A DNA stretch of 55,458 nt, from assembly GCA_945861515.1 (NCBI GenBank), contig CAMAVA010000004.1, forward strand, positions 1 to 55,458, read 5' to 3'. Source of the stretch: Brevundimonas vancanneytii. GTDB lineage: Bacteria > Pseudomonadota > Alphaproteobacteria > Caulobacterales > Caulobacteraceae. The translations under genes and the position numbers were made by a program. Under the pieces are notes generated by a model that saw only the letters and a program-made list of their open reading frames with translations, was not told the origin of the DNA and did not search any database. Positions within the stretch are counted from its first letter, which is position 1. Each line of letters starts with the position of its first letter. This document shows, piece after piece, positions 48,343 through 54,240 of this stretch.

Positions 48343-49026
48343 TCAGCCGAAAACGACTCCCGAATGCTTGGGGCCGGCAAACTCCATCCGGAGCGGAAGC
48401 TTGGCGAAGCGAAGCTTGGCTGCGGCGCCCATCAGCGATGGATTGAACGCCGGCGCCCCGTTGAACTGCGGCAGCGGCATGGCCTTGCCGTCGGCCATCA
48501 CGGCCGATCCCGAGCCCCCGCCCGGAAACGCCACCTGCACCATCTTTGGCGCCACCATGCCAAAACGCCCCGCGGCCTTCTTCACGATGGCGTTCACGTC
48601 AGTCAGGCTGGCCGCGACAATCTTGGCGTCCATTTCAAGGGTTGGACGGGCCGCCCAGACCAGACCGATCCGGACCGAATACCCTGACGAGTCCTGTCCC
48701 TCGAAAATGATCCGGGACTTTTCCGTCAGCTGACGAAGGCTGGGTTCCCGTTCGAACCGACCATCGCTGGCGATGGGCACATGGGTTCTGGTGCCGTCCT
48801 TGTCGACGATGACCGCCTTGATTCCCTGGGCGGGCTTGCCGTTCTGCGTGAGGTAGAAGGAAACCTTCAGCCGGGCGCGTTCCGCCGGCGTCATCCGCAA
48901 AAAGTTGTCCAGGAAGACAAAGACCCGAGCAACTTCGATTTCTCGTTGCGCCGCCATCACCGGGGTTGCGAACAATGGAAAGGCCGCCAGGGGGATCCTG
49001 AACAGGAACCGACGATCAACCGTCAT
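48343..49026 (-). CDS. Exported protein of unknown function (paralog of 47110-47787)
   Basis: Signal peptide (LAAFPLFATPVMA); VFVFLDNFLRMTPAERARLKVSFYLTQNGKPAQGIKAVIVDKDGTRTHVPIASDGRFEREPSLRQL. Confidence 0.85.
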   Translation of the reverse strand: MTVDRRFLFRIPLAAFPLFATPVMAAQREIEVARVFVFLDNFLRMTPAERARLKVSFYLTQNGKPAQGIKAVIVDKDGTRTHVPIASDGRFEREPSLRQLTEKSRIIFEGQDSSGYSVRIGLVWAARPTLEMDAKIVAASLTDVNAIVKKAAGRFGMVAPKMVQVAFPGGGSGSAVMADGKAMPLPQFNGAPAFNPSLMGAAAKLRFAKLPLRMEFAGPKHSGVVFG

Positions 49027-49925
49027 TTGGGCTTCACCAGTTTCAGAGTCATCCGGTCGCTCTCTCCGACGGCGTCATACTCGGCATGATTAAAGCCTGC
49101 CTGGGGCGGCTGTCCACGCGGGGAAGAAAGCCGGGTCGGCGGAAGTGTCCATACACCGAAAGGATGGCGGCGGTCATCCTTGGGATTGGCGTTGATTTCA
49201 CTCGCAGATTCAAGCGCAAAACCCGCTTCCTTCGCCAACTGGATGGCATAGTCCTGTTGCACATAGCCATCGGCGGCGAGGGGATCCTGAACGGCGCCAG
49301 GCAGACCCCGATGCTCTTCGATCCCCAGCACGCCGCCCGGCTTCAGGGCCGCAAAGGCATCCTTGAAGGCCTTGTCGGCGATTCCCGCTGCAATCCAGTT
49401 ATGGAGGTTGCGCAGGAACAGCACCATGTCCGCTGTCCCCGCCGGCGCCACCGGGCCGCTGGAGGGACCAAAGGCCGTCACCTGGACGTCGCCATAAAGT
49501 CTGGCGTTGTCCCTGAGCTTGCGGCCATAGGCCTCGACCACTTCAGTGACGGCGGGGTCCGAAGCCTGCAGGTTGGCCGCGTAGAGTCGACCCTTGCTGG
49601 CGTCCAGATAGGGCGCGAGAATATCGGTGTACCAGCCGGCGCCCGGCCAGAACTCCACCACAGTCATTCCAGGCTTCAGCCCCCAGAAGGTCAAGCTCTC
49701 GACAGGGTGGCGATAGGGGTCGCGGGCTCGATCTGCCGCAGATCGCCAGGCTCCCGCCACCGCATCGGCGATGGTTACAATCCTGTCCGGATCGGCAGGC
49801 CCTGTTCTGTCGAGCGAGACGGCGCCTGCGGGTGGCGGGCGTTCCTTGCATGCTGCCAGGCCGAAGGCAGCGGCGATCCCGACTGCAAGGTCACGTCGGG
49901 ACAGCCCTGATTCACTCGGCGCCAT
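49023..49925 (-). CDS. Predicted class I SAM-dependent methyltransferase with Tat/lipoprotein-type signal (COG4798-like)
   Basis: SRRDLAVGIAAAFGLAAC N-terminus; TVVEFWPGAGWYTDILAPY motif I; ends YDAVGESDRMTLKLVKPK. Confidence 0.88.
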   Translation of the reverse strand: MAPSESGLSRRDLAVGIAAAFGLAACKERPPPAGAVSLDRTGPADPDRIVTIADAVAGAWRSAADRARDPYRHPVESLTFWGLKPGMTVVEFWPGAGWYTDILAPYLDASKGRLYAANLQASDPAVTEVVEAYGRKLRDNARLYGDVQVTAFGPSSGPVAPAGTADMVLFLRNLHNWIAAGIADKAFKDAFAALKPGGVLGIEEHRGLPGAVQDPLAADGYVQQDYAIQLAKEAGFALESASEINANPKDDRRHPFGVWTLPPTRLSSPRGQPPQAGFNHAEYDAVGESDRMTLKLVKPK

Positions 49926-50009
49926 GGCATTGATCATCCAGGTCGCCCCCGCAGACCGCACTGCCCTGGGACTTACCTTGACCGGGGGCCAAGGTCAAAA
50001 GGCCATGTC

Positions 50010-50870
50010 TCACTTCGGCTTGACGAACCGAAGTGTCATGCGGTCACTTTCCCCGATCGCGTCATAGGCGCTGCGGTCAAAGGCCGGGTTGGCCGGCTGT
50101 CCGGCCGGGGCGGTTCGCTTGACCGGCGGCAAGGTCCAGACGCCGAAGGGATGATCCTTGTCGTCGGCGGGGTTTGCGTTGATTTCGCTGGCGGCGGCCA
50201 GCTTGAAGCCTGCGCGCTCTGCGGCCGCGACGACAAAGGCGGTGGACATGTAGCCGGACGGGGCGCCGGGCGCCTGGGGAAGCGGATCAGAGCGGTGCTC
50301 CTCCACGGCAAGAACACCCCCCGGCTTCAGCACATCGTAAAAATCGGACATCACCTTGTCCAGCAAGCCGGCCGGCGACAGCCAGTTGTGGATGTTGCGC
50401 GCCGTCAGAACCAGATCAGCCGATCCAGCGGCTCCGAGACGAGCAGAGACCGGGCCGAAATTGGCGAAGCGAACCGCGCCATAGACATTCTGATCGGCAA
50501 ATCGCGCTTCAAGCGCCGCGCGGGCCTTCCGGGCGCCCTCGGAGAGCGCAGGATTGTCCAGGTCGGCCACCCCGGCTGTGTAGGTTCCTCCGGTCGCCTT
50601 GGCATAGGGGGCCAGGATTTCAGTCCAGTAGCCGCCCCCGGGGCTCACCTCGATGACCGACAGGCCGGGCCGCAACCCCCAGAAGGAAAGGCTTTCGTAG
50701 GGGTGGCGCGCCGGATCGCGGGCCTTGTTGGCCTCTGTGCGGTGCGTGCCGGCAATGGCTGCCGTCAGCGCAGCATCTGGCTTGCTGGCGACCGGCGAGG
50801 CGGCAGCGATGCCCCCAAGGGCGATGGACAGAAGGCTGCCCGCGATCAAGACCCATCGACGGTTCTGCAT
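50010..50870 (-). CDS. Predicted class I SAM-dependent methyltransferase with signal peptide (paralog of 49023-49925)
   Basis: MQNRRWVLIAGSLLSIALGGIAAASPVA signal; SVIEVSPGGGYWTEILAPY motif I; ends YDAIGESDRMTLRFVKPK. Confidence 0.88.
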   Translation of the reverse strand: MQNRRWVLIAGSLLSIALGGIAAASPVASKPDAALTAAIAGTHRTEANKARDPARHPYESLSFWGLRPGLSVIEVSPGGGYWTEILAPYAKATGGTYTAGVADLDNPALSEGARKARAALEARFADQNVYGAVRFANFGPVSARLGAAGSADLVLTARNIHNWLSPAGLLDKVMSDFYDVLKPGGVLAVEEHRSDPLPQAPGAPSGYMSTAFVVAAAERAGFKLAAASEINANPADDKDHPFGVWTLPPVKRTAPAGQPANPAFDRSAYDAIGESDRMTLRFVKPK

Positions 50871-50891
50871 GCTGGTTATCCCTCTGATGCT

Positions 50892-50926
50892 CGGAATGTC
50901 GCAGCAGATATGGCTGCGACATTCCG
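50892..50926. other. Perfect 14-bp inverted repeat (CGGAATGTCGCAGC-AGATATG-GCTGCGACATTCCG) in a divergent intergenic region
   Basis: Read directly; no T-tract on either side. Confidence 0.9.
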
Positions 50927-50937
50927 GTTTGGGGAGT

Positions 50938-50965
50938 CTTGAAATCCAAAAAGCTGTTCCCACCT
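50938..50965 (+). promoter_or_regulatory. Candidate sigma32 (RpoH) promoter of hsp20
   Basis: CTTG-N17-CCCACCT, against the alphaproteobacterial pattern CTTG-N17-CYTATNT. Confidence 0.5.
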
Positions 50966-50972
50966 TCTGACC

Positions 50973-51067
50973 GAGGCGCCGAATTCGGGCCTCACGGGAG
51001 CCTGACGAGACCAGATCGGTGCGTCACTTCCCGGCTATTGCAACCTTGCTTGACCAAGAAGGATGTT
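50973..51067 (+). ncRNA. ROSE-like RNA thermometer in the hsp20 5' UTR
   Basis: Three predicted stem-loops; the last pairs CCUU(G)CUU (51044-51051, containing UUGCU) with AAGAAGG (51056-51062), the Shine-Dalgarno. Confidence 0.75.
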
Positions 51068-51074
51068 ACTGAAA

Positions 51075-51533
51075 ATGCGAACGATCGACTTCTCTCCCCT
51101 CTACCGCTCCGTTGTCGGTTTCGACCGACTGGCCTCCCTGCTGGACGCTGCGGCCGCCCAGGACAGCACAACGGGTTATCCTCCCTACAATATCGAACGG
51201 ACCGGCGAAGACGCCTACCGCGTCGAGATCGCCGTGGCCGGCTTCCGCCCGGATGAACTGATTATCGAGGTCAAGGAAAACCTCCTGGCCGTCCAGGGCC
51301 GCAAGGCCGCCAATGACGATGCCCGGAAATTCCTGCATCGCGGCCTCGCTGAGCGGAATTTCGAGCGCCGGTTCCAGTTGGCTGACTATGTCATCGTCCA
51401 TGACGCCAATCTTGCCGATGGCCTGCTGTCGATCAGCCTCAAACGCGAACTGCCGGAGGCTCTCAAGCCGCGCACCATCAAGATCGGCGTTTCCAACGCC
51501 GCCAATTTGATTGATGCGGAAAAGGCAGCCTGA
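51075..51533 (+). CDS. Small heat shock protein, Hsp20 family
   Basis: MRTIDFSPLYRSVVGFDRLASLLD; alpha-crystallin core NIERTGEDAYRVEIAVAGFRPDELIIEVKENLLAVQGRK. Confidence 0.97.
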   Translation: MRTIDFSPLYRSVVGFDRLASLLDAAAAQDSTTGYPPYNIERTGEDAYRVEIAVAGFRPDELIIEVKENLLAVQGRKAANDDARKFLHRGLAERNFERRFQLADYVIVHDANLADGLLSISLKRELPEALKPRTIKIGVSNAANLIDAEKAA

Positions 51534-51556
51534 GGCCTCGAACCTCGGCGATTACC

Positions 51557-51585
51557 GGGGCGGCGCGCCAGCGCCGCCCCTTTTT
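51557..51585 (+). terminator. Rho-independent terminator of hsp20
   Basis: GGGGCGGCGC-GCCA-GCGCCGCCCC-TTTTT, perfect 10-bp stem. Confidence 0.95.
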
Positions 51586-51593
51586 CGTGTCGC

Positions 51594-52850
51594 TCAGGTT
51601 TCCATTCCGATCACGGAACTGATCTCTGCGTCCCGGAAGCTGGTCCTGAGAAGTTTTGCGCCGGTCAGGTCGGCGCCCCGCAAATCGGCGCCGTCCAGAA
51701 TCGCCGAGGTCAGATCTGCAGCCTGTGCCCGGGTATAGCGCATCCTGGCCTGGTTGAGGGTCGCTGGACTGGACCGTTCGGGCGTCAGGGGAAGCACGCC
51801 GACCAGGGAGCCGCGCAGGTCTGATTTTGTGAGATTGGCGCCCGCCAGCTTTGCGCCTCGCAGATCTGCCCCACGGAGGTCGGCGCCCCTCAGGTCCGCA
51901 CCCTCCAGATTGGCGCCCTGCAGCTGGGTCCCGGTCAGGTCCATGCCGACCAGGCAGGCGCCCCTGGCGCTCATGGCCGTCAAGCGCAAGCCCCTGAGCC
52001 TGGACCCCAGGGGACGAAGATCAGCACCATCGAACCGGGCGGGGGCTGCCCGCTTGCCACCGCTTTCGCACCAGGCCTGATTCCCGAGCGCAGCTTCCAA
52101 CCATTGCGGCGCCAGGGCGACGGCGTCGGCTGACGGAGATGCCAGAACACCCTTGAGACAGGTTCCGCTCATCTTGGCGACCGAAACGTCGACGCCGCTG
52201 ATCACGGCGCCCGAGAGGTCCGCGCCTTCCAGATTGCAGCCTGAAACCTGTGCGCCCTCCAGGTTGGCGCCGGTCAGATTGGCATCCTTGAGGTTGGCCC
52301 CCGTCAGAACAGCGCCCCGCAATGAGCAGTCCGAAAAATCCGAGGAGAAGGCAGACATCCCGTGCATCTGTGTTCCGTCGAGCGTCGCCCCGACAAACAG
52401 CACGCCGTTGGCCCCCGACGACCGGTCTTCATGGCGCAGGCCGTTTAGTCCCTTGCTGGGATGAGGAACGGCGATCTGCCCTTCTCGAAAATCGGCCTGG
52501 GTCAGGTCCGCTTGAGTCAGATTGGCGCCATGCAGGCAGACCCCGCGCAGATCCGCCCGGATCAGACTGGCCTGGATCAGATTGGCCCGGCGAAGATCCG
52601 ACCCGAACAGATTGGATCGATCAAGCCTGGTCCGGATCATCCTGGCGCCATCGAGAACAGACGCCGAAATGTCGGCATCGGAAAGATTGCGGCCCGACAG
52701 GTCCAGGCCAGACAGATCCATGAAGCGCAAGGTCGCACGTTTGCCGCCGGGCCGGCCGCTGAGCAGCCGCTCATGGCCGTCGATCAGAAGGTCCAGCTCA
52801 TTCTGGCTGATGCGCCGACGTCCGGTCAGAGGCGTTTGAGCCAATTGCAA
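51594..52850 (-). CDS. Pentapeptide repeat protein
   Basis: Repeated A(D/N)LxG pentapeptides, for example GANLEGADLRGADLRGADLRGAKLAGANL. Confidence 0.95.
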   Translation of the reverse strand: MQLAQTPLTGRRRISQNELDLLIDGHERLLSGRPGGKRATLRFMDLSGLDLSGRNLSDADISASVLDGARMIRTRLDRSNLFGSDLRRANLIQASLIRADLRGVCLHGANLTQADLTQADFREGQIAVPHPSKGLNGLRHEDRSSGANGVLFVGATLDGTQMHGMSAFSSDFSDCSLRGAVLTGANLKDANLTGANLEGAQVSGCNLEGADLSGAVISGVDVSVAKMSGTCLKGVLASPSADAVALAPQWLEAALGNQAWCESGGKRAAPARFDGADLRPLGSRLRGLRLTAMSARGACLVGMDLTGTQLQGANLEGADLRGADLRGADLRGAKLAGANLTKSDLRGSLVGVLPLTPERSSPATLNQARMRYTRAQAADLTSAILDGADLRGADLTGAKLLRTSFRDAEISSVIGMET

Positions 52851-52980
52851 GGGCAGTTCCTCAGGGGACGGGAAAACGAATCGATGGCCGAACAGGGATA
52901 CGCCAGAATTCTGGCCAATGGGTTAGCGACCGTGATTGAGCGATGCGCCTTGCCAAATCAGCCATCAGATCGAAATCGAC

Positions 52981-54240
52981 CTAGGCTGAACGCTTCCAGT
53001 CCATGCCCTTTGCGCCGTCCAGCCTGACCTCGGACAGGTCCACACCTCGAAACTGGGCGCCCGTGACATTGGCGCGTGACAGATCAGCGCCCTTGAAAAT
53101 CGCCTTGCGAAAGTCTCCGCCGGCCAGATCCGCATTCTTCAGATTGGCGCCGGTCAGATCGCAGGGCAAAAGTCTGTCAACGGACAGCAGCAGCGGCCCC
53201 ATCTGGACGTCCCGCATATCAGCGCCGGCCATGCGGGCGCCGGCAAGGCGAGCCCCCCGCAGGTCGGCTCGTCGCAGGTTGCAGGCCCGTAGATCGGCCC
53301 CGTCGAGCTGAGCGCCCTGAAGCTGCGCGCCTTCCAGGTCGAGACCGTAAAAAGTGGCCTGTCTCGCAGACAGGGCGGTCAGGTTCATCCCCTTCAGGCT
53401 GCCCAGAGCTCGCAGGTCGGCGCCATTGAAGCTGGATGGCCGGCCTTCGCCGCCGCCCGTTTCGCACCAGCGCGCATGATCCCGGATCATGACCTCGTAG
53501 GGCAGCTCCGAGACAGAGGCTCCGGAGGGCCGATCGGTCAGGACGCCCTTCATGTTGGCGTCGGAGACATTCCAGGCAAACGTCTTGGCCCCGACCAGGA
53601 TCACATCGGTCAGGTCAGCCCCGGACAGGTCGGCGCCCGACAGATCGGCGCCGGCCAGGTTGGCCCCGCTCATGGACGCCTGCTTGAGGTTCGCCCTGAC
53701 CAGTTTCGCGTCCTTGAGGATCGCGTCGGTGAAGTCCGCCTTGACCGCCACGACGCCGGACAGGCGAGACCGCTCCAGATTGGCGCCCGACAGATTTGCC
53801 CCCCGCACATCGCCAGACCTCACCCGGTGTTCGAGGATTCGATAACCCTTTGCCGCATCGGCAGCCGCCAGCACCCCTTCACGCAGGTCCGCTTCGAACA
53901 GATCGGCGCCCGAGAGATCGGCGCCGCGAAGACAGCAGCCCCGAAGATCAGCCCGGCGCAGCGACGCCTCGGTCAGGATGGCGTCCTGAAGATCGGCCCC
54001 GAAGAAGCTGGCATTGTCGAATCGCGCGCCGGCGAGATTGGCTTCCGCCAGGCAGGCGCCGGCGAAATCGGCATCGCAGAGATTGCGTCCCTTCAGGCTG
54101 AGGCCCGTCAAGTCACAAAAGCTGAAAACCGCCCGAGCACCGCCGCCCCGCCCGGACCACAGCCGATCATGGCGGGCGCAGATCAGATCGACATCCTGTT
54201 GCGTCAACCGGCGAACAGTTGACGAGGGCGCGGCGGTCAT
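52981..54240 (-). CDS. Pentapeptide repeat protein (paralog of 51594-52850)
   Basis: Repeats GANLAGADLSGADLSGADLTDV; shared N-terminal module and WCE(S/T)GG...F(D/N)GADLR(P/A)LGS segment. Confidence 0.95.
   Translation of the reverse strand: MTAAPSSTVRRLTQQDVDLICARHDRLWSGRGGGARAVFSFCDLTGLSLKGRNLCDADFAGACLAEANLAGARFDNASFFGADLQDAILTEASLRRADLRGCCLRGADLSGADLFEADLREGVLAAADAAKGYRILEHRVRSGDVRGANLSGANLERSRLSGVVAVKADFTDAILKDAKLVRANLKQASMSGANLAGADLSGADLSGADLTDVILVGAKTFAWNVSDANMKGVLTDRPSGASVSELPYEVMIRDHARWCETGGGEGRPSSFNGADLRALGSLKGMNLTALSARQATFYGLDLEGAQLQGAQLDGADLRACNLRRADLRGARLAGARMAGADMRDVQMGPLLLSVDRLLPCDLTGANLKNADLAGGDFRKAIFKGADLSRANVTGAQFRGVDLSEVRLDGAKGMDWKRSA

Follow-up and report, generated by a model that had tools for sequence, protein, structure and literature searches.

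ROSE-type RNA thermometers, and their occurrence in C. crescentus, are already known from the account given in PMC3669281, which places them upstream of small heat-shock genes of alpha- and gammaproteobacteria, namely rhizobia, C. crescentus, Salmonella and E. coli (citing Waldminghaus 2005 and Nocker 2001), and lists elements with three to four hairpins for C. crescentus (citing Waldminghaus 2005 among others). In the short ROSE-like thermometers of Pseudomonas ibpA, a sigma32-dependent gene, the motif opposite the Shine-Dalgarno (SD) sequence melts on heating, hairpin I stays intact, and stabilising mutations locked the thermometer (PMC3669281). In ROSE-G elements, found upstream of ABC transporter genes, the xUGCU anti-SD motif is CUGCU, and its bulged G faces another G that is bulged in the SD (PMC12857270).

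The hsp20 leader analysed here lies in a 55,458-bp stretch of DNA from Brevundimonas vancanneytii, of the family Caulobacteraceae (the window; Table 1). It has in common with the known ROSE elements, to which it is likened from sequence alone, a U(U/C)GCU anti-SD, a 3′-terminal hairpin occluding the SD, stable upstream hairpins and a small heat-shock gene, but differs in sequence and in hairpin layout outside the terminal hairpin. The Pseudomonas ibpA elements have the same motif, the same terminal hairpin logic and a non-melting hairpin I, but consist of two hairpins rather than three (PMC3669281). As in ROSE-G, a G is bulged in the anti-SD motif; unlike ROSE-G, the motif is UUGCU and the SD core is fully paired, with no bulge on the SD strand. 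The four consecutive U opposite the SD that characterise FourU thermometers are not found, the anti-SD being CCUUGCUU. The ROSE features that were checked are all present: U(U/C)GCU opposite the SD, an unpaired G in the anti-SD strand, two to four hairpins (here three) with the 3′-terminal one holding the SD, and a position upstream of a small heat-shock gene, identified by its Pfam HSP20 match. By sequence and predicted structure the leader fits every defining feature of ROSE examined, though its scores place it outside all Rfam ROSE models. The hsp20 mRNA very probably combines a sigma32-type promoter with a three-hairpin ROSE-type thermometer, in which a labile third hairpin (SL3) would release the SD on heat shock.

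Table 1 Features of the hsp20 locus (positions in the window; free energies at 37 °C).
Feature	Position	Strand	Details
Sigma32 (RpoH)-type promoter	50938..50965	+	CTTGAAA (-35), N13, TCCCACCT (-10)
SL1, stable 5′ hairpin	50973..50993	+	GAGGC-G-CCG-AAUU-CGG-GCCUC; minimum free energy (MFE) structure; -13.8 kcal/mol
SL2, stable middle hairpin	50995..51033	+	MFE structure; -16.8 kcal/mol
SL3, presumed thermosensing hairpin	51040..51066	+	MFE structure; -6.0 kcal/mol
Shine-Dalgarno, sequestered in SL3	51059..51063	+	AAGGA; from sequence
hsp20 coding sequence, small heat-shock protein	51075..51533	+	152 aa; ATG 51075
Intrinsic-terminator-like hairpin with T tail	51557..51580	+	pattern scan

A sigma32-like promoter had been proposed in the preliminary description, and the bases are as claimed, CTTG (50938-50941) and CCCACCT (50959-50965) being separated by N17. 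The longer pattern CTTGAAA-N12..15-CCCAYNT occurs once in the window (0.02 expected), and CTTG is found upstream of hsp20 in 67/70 family orthologues, where N17 is also the most frequent spacing to the -10 core; a predicted promoter of sigma32 type is conserved in the family. A pattern scan of 50850-51620 found no sigma70-like promoter. Transcription would start at about 50970. The product of the coding sequence is Hsp20 (PF00011; E 1.8e-17, 63.7 bits), a relative of which was found in 299/299 sampled family genomes, with the best matches beginning at residue 1. ATG 51075, previously suggested as the true start, is favoured over ATG 51063 because in the frame of the latter a stop precedes the start codon in 33/70 relatives. 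The hairpin 3′ of the gene probably ends a single-gene hsp20 transcript.

SL1, SL2 and SL3 together constitute both the predicted MFE and the centroid structure of the leader at 37 °C (-38.2 kcal/mol, z = -2.74; RNAfold), with 1/200 shuffled sequences as stable. This is the fold given in the preliminary description, every base of which, including the bulged G51048, was found as described. In SL2 the outer helix (50995-51000/51028-51033) encloses UGACG..CGUCA (51003-51007/51022-51026) and a small ACC..GGU helix. In the SL3 core the anti-SD (CCUU-G-CUU, 51044-51051) is paired with AAGAAGG (51056-51062), UUGCU (51046-51050) lying opposite the SD; the stem extension C51041-G51065/A51042-U51064, also described earlier, is lengthened by one further pair, G51040-U51066, and A51043/A51063 form a mismatch. 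The core pattern CCTTGCTT-N3..8-AAGAAGGA (CCTTGCTTN{3,8}AAGAAGGA) occurs once in the window (0.00 expected). SL3 is far less stable than SL1 or SL2. Its predicted free energy drops from -6.0 to -9.8 kcal/mol when the bulged G is deleted in silico, as would follow from a bulge that determines the melting point.

The fold of 50970-51077 is unchanged from 20 to 60 °C (RNAfold), save for a single isolated pair in the folds for 20 and 25 °C. With 18 extra coding bases, SL1-SL2-SL3 is the MFE structure at 25-60 °C, and at 20 °C the MFE structure retains SL1 while the remainder re-pairs, with the SD still paired. The mean predicted unpaired fraction of the SD is at most 0.1 at 20-42 °C, and by nearest-neighbour folding the SD opens little at 42 °C, where about 7% is predicted to be unpaired. 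The temperature series advised in the preliminary description thus upholds the structure across 25-42 °C and yields only slight opening of the SD, so that computation alone does not demonstrate a response in the right range. Such limited melting, together with the conserved sigma32-type promoter and the stable SL1 and SL2 at the inferred 5′ end, would also fit a hairpin that merely keeps translation constantly low, heat induction being wholly transcriptional via sigma32 and SL1 and SL2 serving only to shield the mRNA 5′ end.

Within the family, the structure was assessed on an alignment (A2) of 64 distinct leaders and 33 pairs, with 500 shuffles as control. Standard pairs occupy 93.6% of cells (shuffle mean 88.8%), 17 pairs have double changes (shuffle mean 9.9) and 105 cells are double-changed (shuffle mean 29.8), values equalled in none of the 500 shuffles. 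The covariation score is 0.220 (0.142 in shuffles), and pairing falls to 53% when partners are slid by one column. This signal is carried by SL1, with 98.9% of cells paired and compensatory changes at 6/10 pairs, and by SL2, with compensatory changes in both outer and inner helices. The SD-core pairs of SL3 are nearly invariant in the family, and hence little evidence alone, because one strand is the ribosome-binding site. An initial RNAalifold run on the first MAFFT alignment replaced SL3 with a GCA/UGC mini-hairpin, which was judged artefactual and put down to invariant letters and to misalignment of the SD columns. The leader of the C. vibrioides orthologue has the same three hairpins, and SL2 is probably accessory, as it is missing from the two-hairpin leaders of one genus (g18; L038 and L039), which keep SL1 and SL3.

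The bulged G of SL3 is invariant in 64/64 aligned relatives and unpaired in the structure that they support; in 20/95 motif-bearing relatives scoring of the local MFE structure did not return the canonical form with the bulged G. Retention of the unpaired G in essentially all relatives, though its loss would lock the SD tighter, argues against constantly low translation, as does the presence of the same motif in the tested Pseudomonas ibpA thermometer (PMC3669281), and purely transcriptional induction is accordingly improbable as an account of this leader.

The SD hairpin extends well beyond the family. U(U/C)GCU was found near the start codon in 95/96 leaders of an order-wide set, and no more than 50 bases from the start in 78/78 hsp20 relatives of a second collection, sharing some genomes with the first; the background frequency is 7% of 50-nt tiles. 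Leaders from families f2, f159, f160 and f161, which belong to the same order, also retain the motif near the start codon. The UUGCU motif with its unpaired G, singled out in the preliminary description as the hallmark of ROSE, is present here, and U(U/C)GCU is general among relatives. The lone family leader lacking U(U/C)GCU (L075, genome G009) has CUGCU by the SD, recalling the ROSE-G motif.

A bulged-G SD hairpin can form in 139/140 distinct alpha- and gammaproteobacterial hsp20 leaders. The two pairs flanking the SL3 core are kept in 138/139 (67.9 shuffled) and 137/139 (87.5 shuffled) leaders, counts that use the best offset per leader, which favours pairing, and both alternate among C-G, A-U, G-C and U-A forms across these classes. 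Core plus flanks are present in 51/54 non-Caulobacteraceae leaders, but in a mean of only 20.5 (maximum 29) when 3′ halves were swapped among them and the offset re-optimised; the shuffle and swap controls leave relatedness among the sequences in place. Covariation of the predicted SL3 thus stems from the wider alpha- and gammaproteobacterial set and goes beyond these controls. Absence of covariation in homologues, which would have told against the element, was not encountered: covariation was seen at family level for SL1 and SL2, and in the wider set for the SL3 flanks.

A covariance model built from the 64 family leaders, the window sequence among them, was used to search the whole 3.42-Mb genome. 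The window site scored 74.8 bits, partly by construction as it is in the model, so that the gap to the second match (18.8 bits) and the matches elsewhere are the informative part; the next-best sites (18.8 and 15.3 bits) were treated as chance. In a sample of relatives (41 genomes) the model found one site in each of 25 same-genus genomes, falling just before hsp20 matches wherever both are listed, and none in 16 genomes that belong to the order but not to the family, under stricter filters with which weak matches are lost. Across the class, most of 289 genomes had no match under the same kind of filters, and the sole match in another family is immediately 5′ of an hsp20 gene there. Judging from these searches, the complete three-hairpin form appears to be a trait of the family.

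The Rfam ROSE model (RF00435) has no match in the window at its gathering score (45 bits), in 50700-51300 at E up to 5, or in the genome, and no Rfam family reaches cut-off in the leader. ROSE_3 (RF02523) gives a partial match of 17.6 bits, below its 43-bit gathering cut-off, which aligns SL1 with its hairpin 1 only. The Rfam scan advised in the preliminary description was thus negative at cut-off, and is uninformative because the C. vibrioides and Bradyrhizobium orthologues also fail; membership was rejected as a decisive test, the Aeromonas hsp20 locus likewise having no match at cut-off. RF00435 does score above cut-off elsewhere in family genomes, mostly before additional hsp20 genes where checked, but it matches neither the hsp20 leader of the window nor the corresponding leaders of the relatives scanned. 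SL1 resembles hairpin 1 of ROSE_3, to which SL2 is additional; the leaders of genus g18 with SL1 and SL3 only match ROSE_3 over its full length at 31-34 bits, and two three-hairpin relatives do so at 21-25 bits, all below the cut-off of 43. The simplest reading of these matches is a ROSE_3-like element plus an extra SL2, which may have been gained in the one form or lost from the other. That the leader acts as an attenuator, or as a translational switch responding to a ligand or protein, is very unlikely: SL2 is conserved and varied enough for a binding site, but there are zero Rfam matches at cut-off, genus g18 lacks SL2 yet has SL1 and SL3, the element is tied to hsp20, and attenuation was rejected as a pattern scan found no terminator-like site in the leader.

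In the preferred thermometer reading, hsp20 would be transcribed from the sigma32-type promoter into an mRNA whose 5′ end is SL1-SL2-SL3. SL1 and SL2 are stable and would not be expected to melt, and in SL3 the anti-SD would cover the AAGAAGG of the Shine-Dalgarno region in a helix weakened by the unpaired G. At growth temperature ribosomes would be held off, and on heat shock SL3 would loosen and Hsp20 be made. Melting of SL3 in the physiological range and control at the level of translation are inferred by analogy with the known elements. The leader is a real, structurally well supported and ordinary ROSE-type element on comparative grounds, and its thermometer role is putative.

A comparatively supported, putative ROSE thermometer appears to front the core hsp20 gene in most sampled Caulobacteraceae genera, and the Rfam models miss this hsp20 orthologous group as well as the scanned Bradyrhizobium orthologues. 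Evidence of covariation for the bulged-G hairpin spans alpha- and gammaproteobacteria, and the alignment at hand could seed the missing RNA family. Two details are new at the level of predicted structure: the Caulobacteraceae form resembles ROSE_3 but has an additional hairpin in the middle, and the other hsp20 of the genome also has a ROSE-like leader. A more speculative extension, rather doubtful at present, is a Caulobacteraceae-specific ROSE subfamily outside Rfam, in which a two-hairpin ancestor resembling ROSE_3 acquired the strongly covarying SL2 and this hairpin has its own role (melting-point tuning, mRNA stability or factor binding), SL1 being a 5′-end module common to the second hsp20 leader and some alphaproteobacterial clpB leaders.

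The second hsp20 lies outside the window (contig C144, gene at 1323), and its ROSE-like leader (L105; 1240-1340) contains an SL1-like GCCGAATTCGGGCC plus GAGTCGCTTGGTTTCAAAAGGACTC, with a UCGCU motif whose G is bulged opposite AGGA. Of 26 leaders from the genus, most have similar hairpins, among which GAG:CUC is changed to GAA:UUC. SL1 as a genome-wide 5′ hairpin of heat-shock genes was rejected: a pattern scan gave 49 matches (38 in the reversed control), a loose promoter test on 30 loci left only the hsp20 leader and one other match (L193/L194), and clpB leaders of the genus bear a different hairpin. Many of these clpB leaders (L137-L164, that of this genome being L148, gene at 1492) have a common conserved hairpin of the type CCGGUUGUGCUUGAUCAAGGCGACCGG, located downstream of a sigma32-like promoter (CTTGTGTG...CCACACCTACAT) and ahead of the start codon, and with apparent compensatory changes. 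Weak ROSE_3 matches with an SL1-like 5′ hairpin were also seen before clpB, not hsp20, in two other alphaproteobacterial families (L135 and L136).

The neighbouring regions of the window (49023-50870 and 51594-54240, both minus strand) encode a pair of proteins similar by eye, one with a weak methyltransferase match below cut-off, and two tandem pentapeptide-repeat proteins. Directly upstream of the hsp20 promoter, within the presumed leader of the divergent minus-strand gene (ATG at 50870), is a perfect 14-bp inverted repeat (CGGAATGTCGCAGC-7 nt-GCTGCGACATTCCG; 50892-50926). It is very stable (z = -8.07), has 0 further exact copies in the window, and may be an operator or a leader hairpin.
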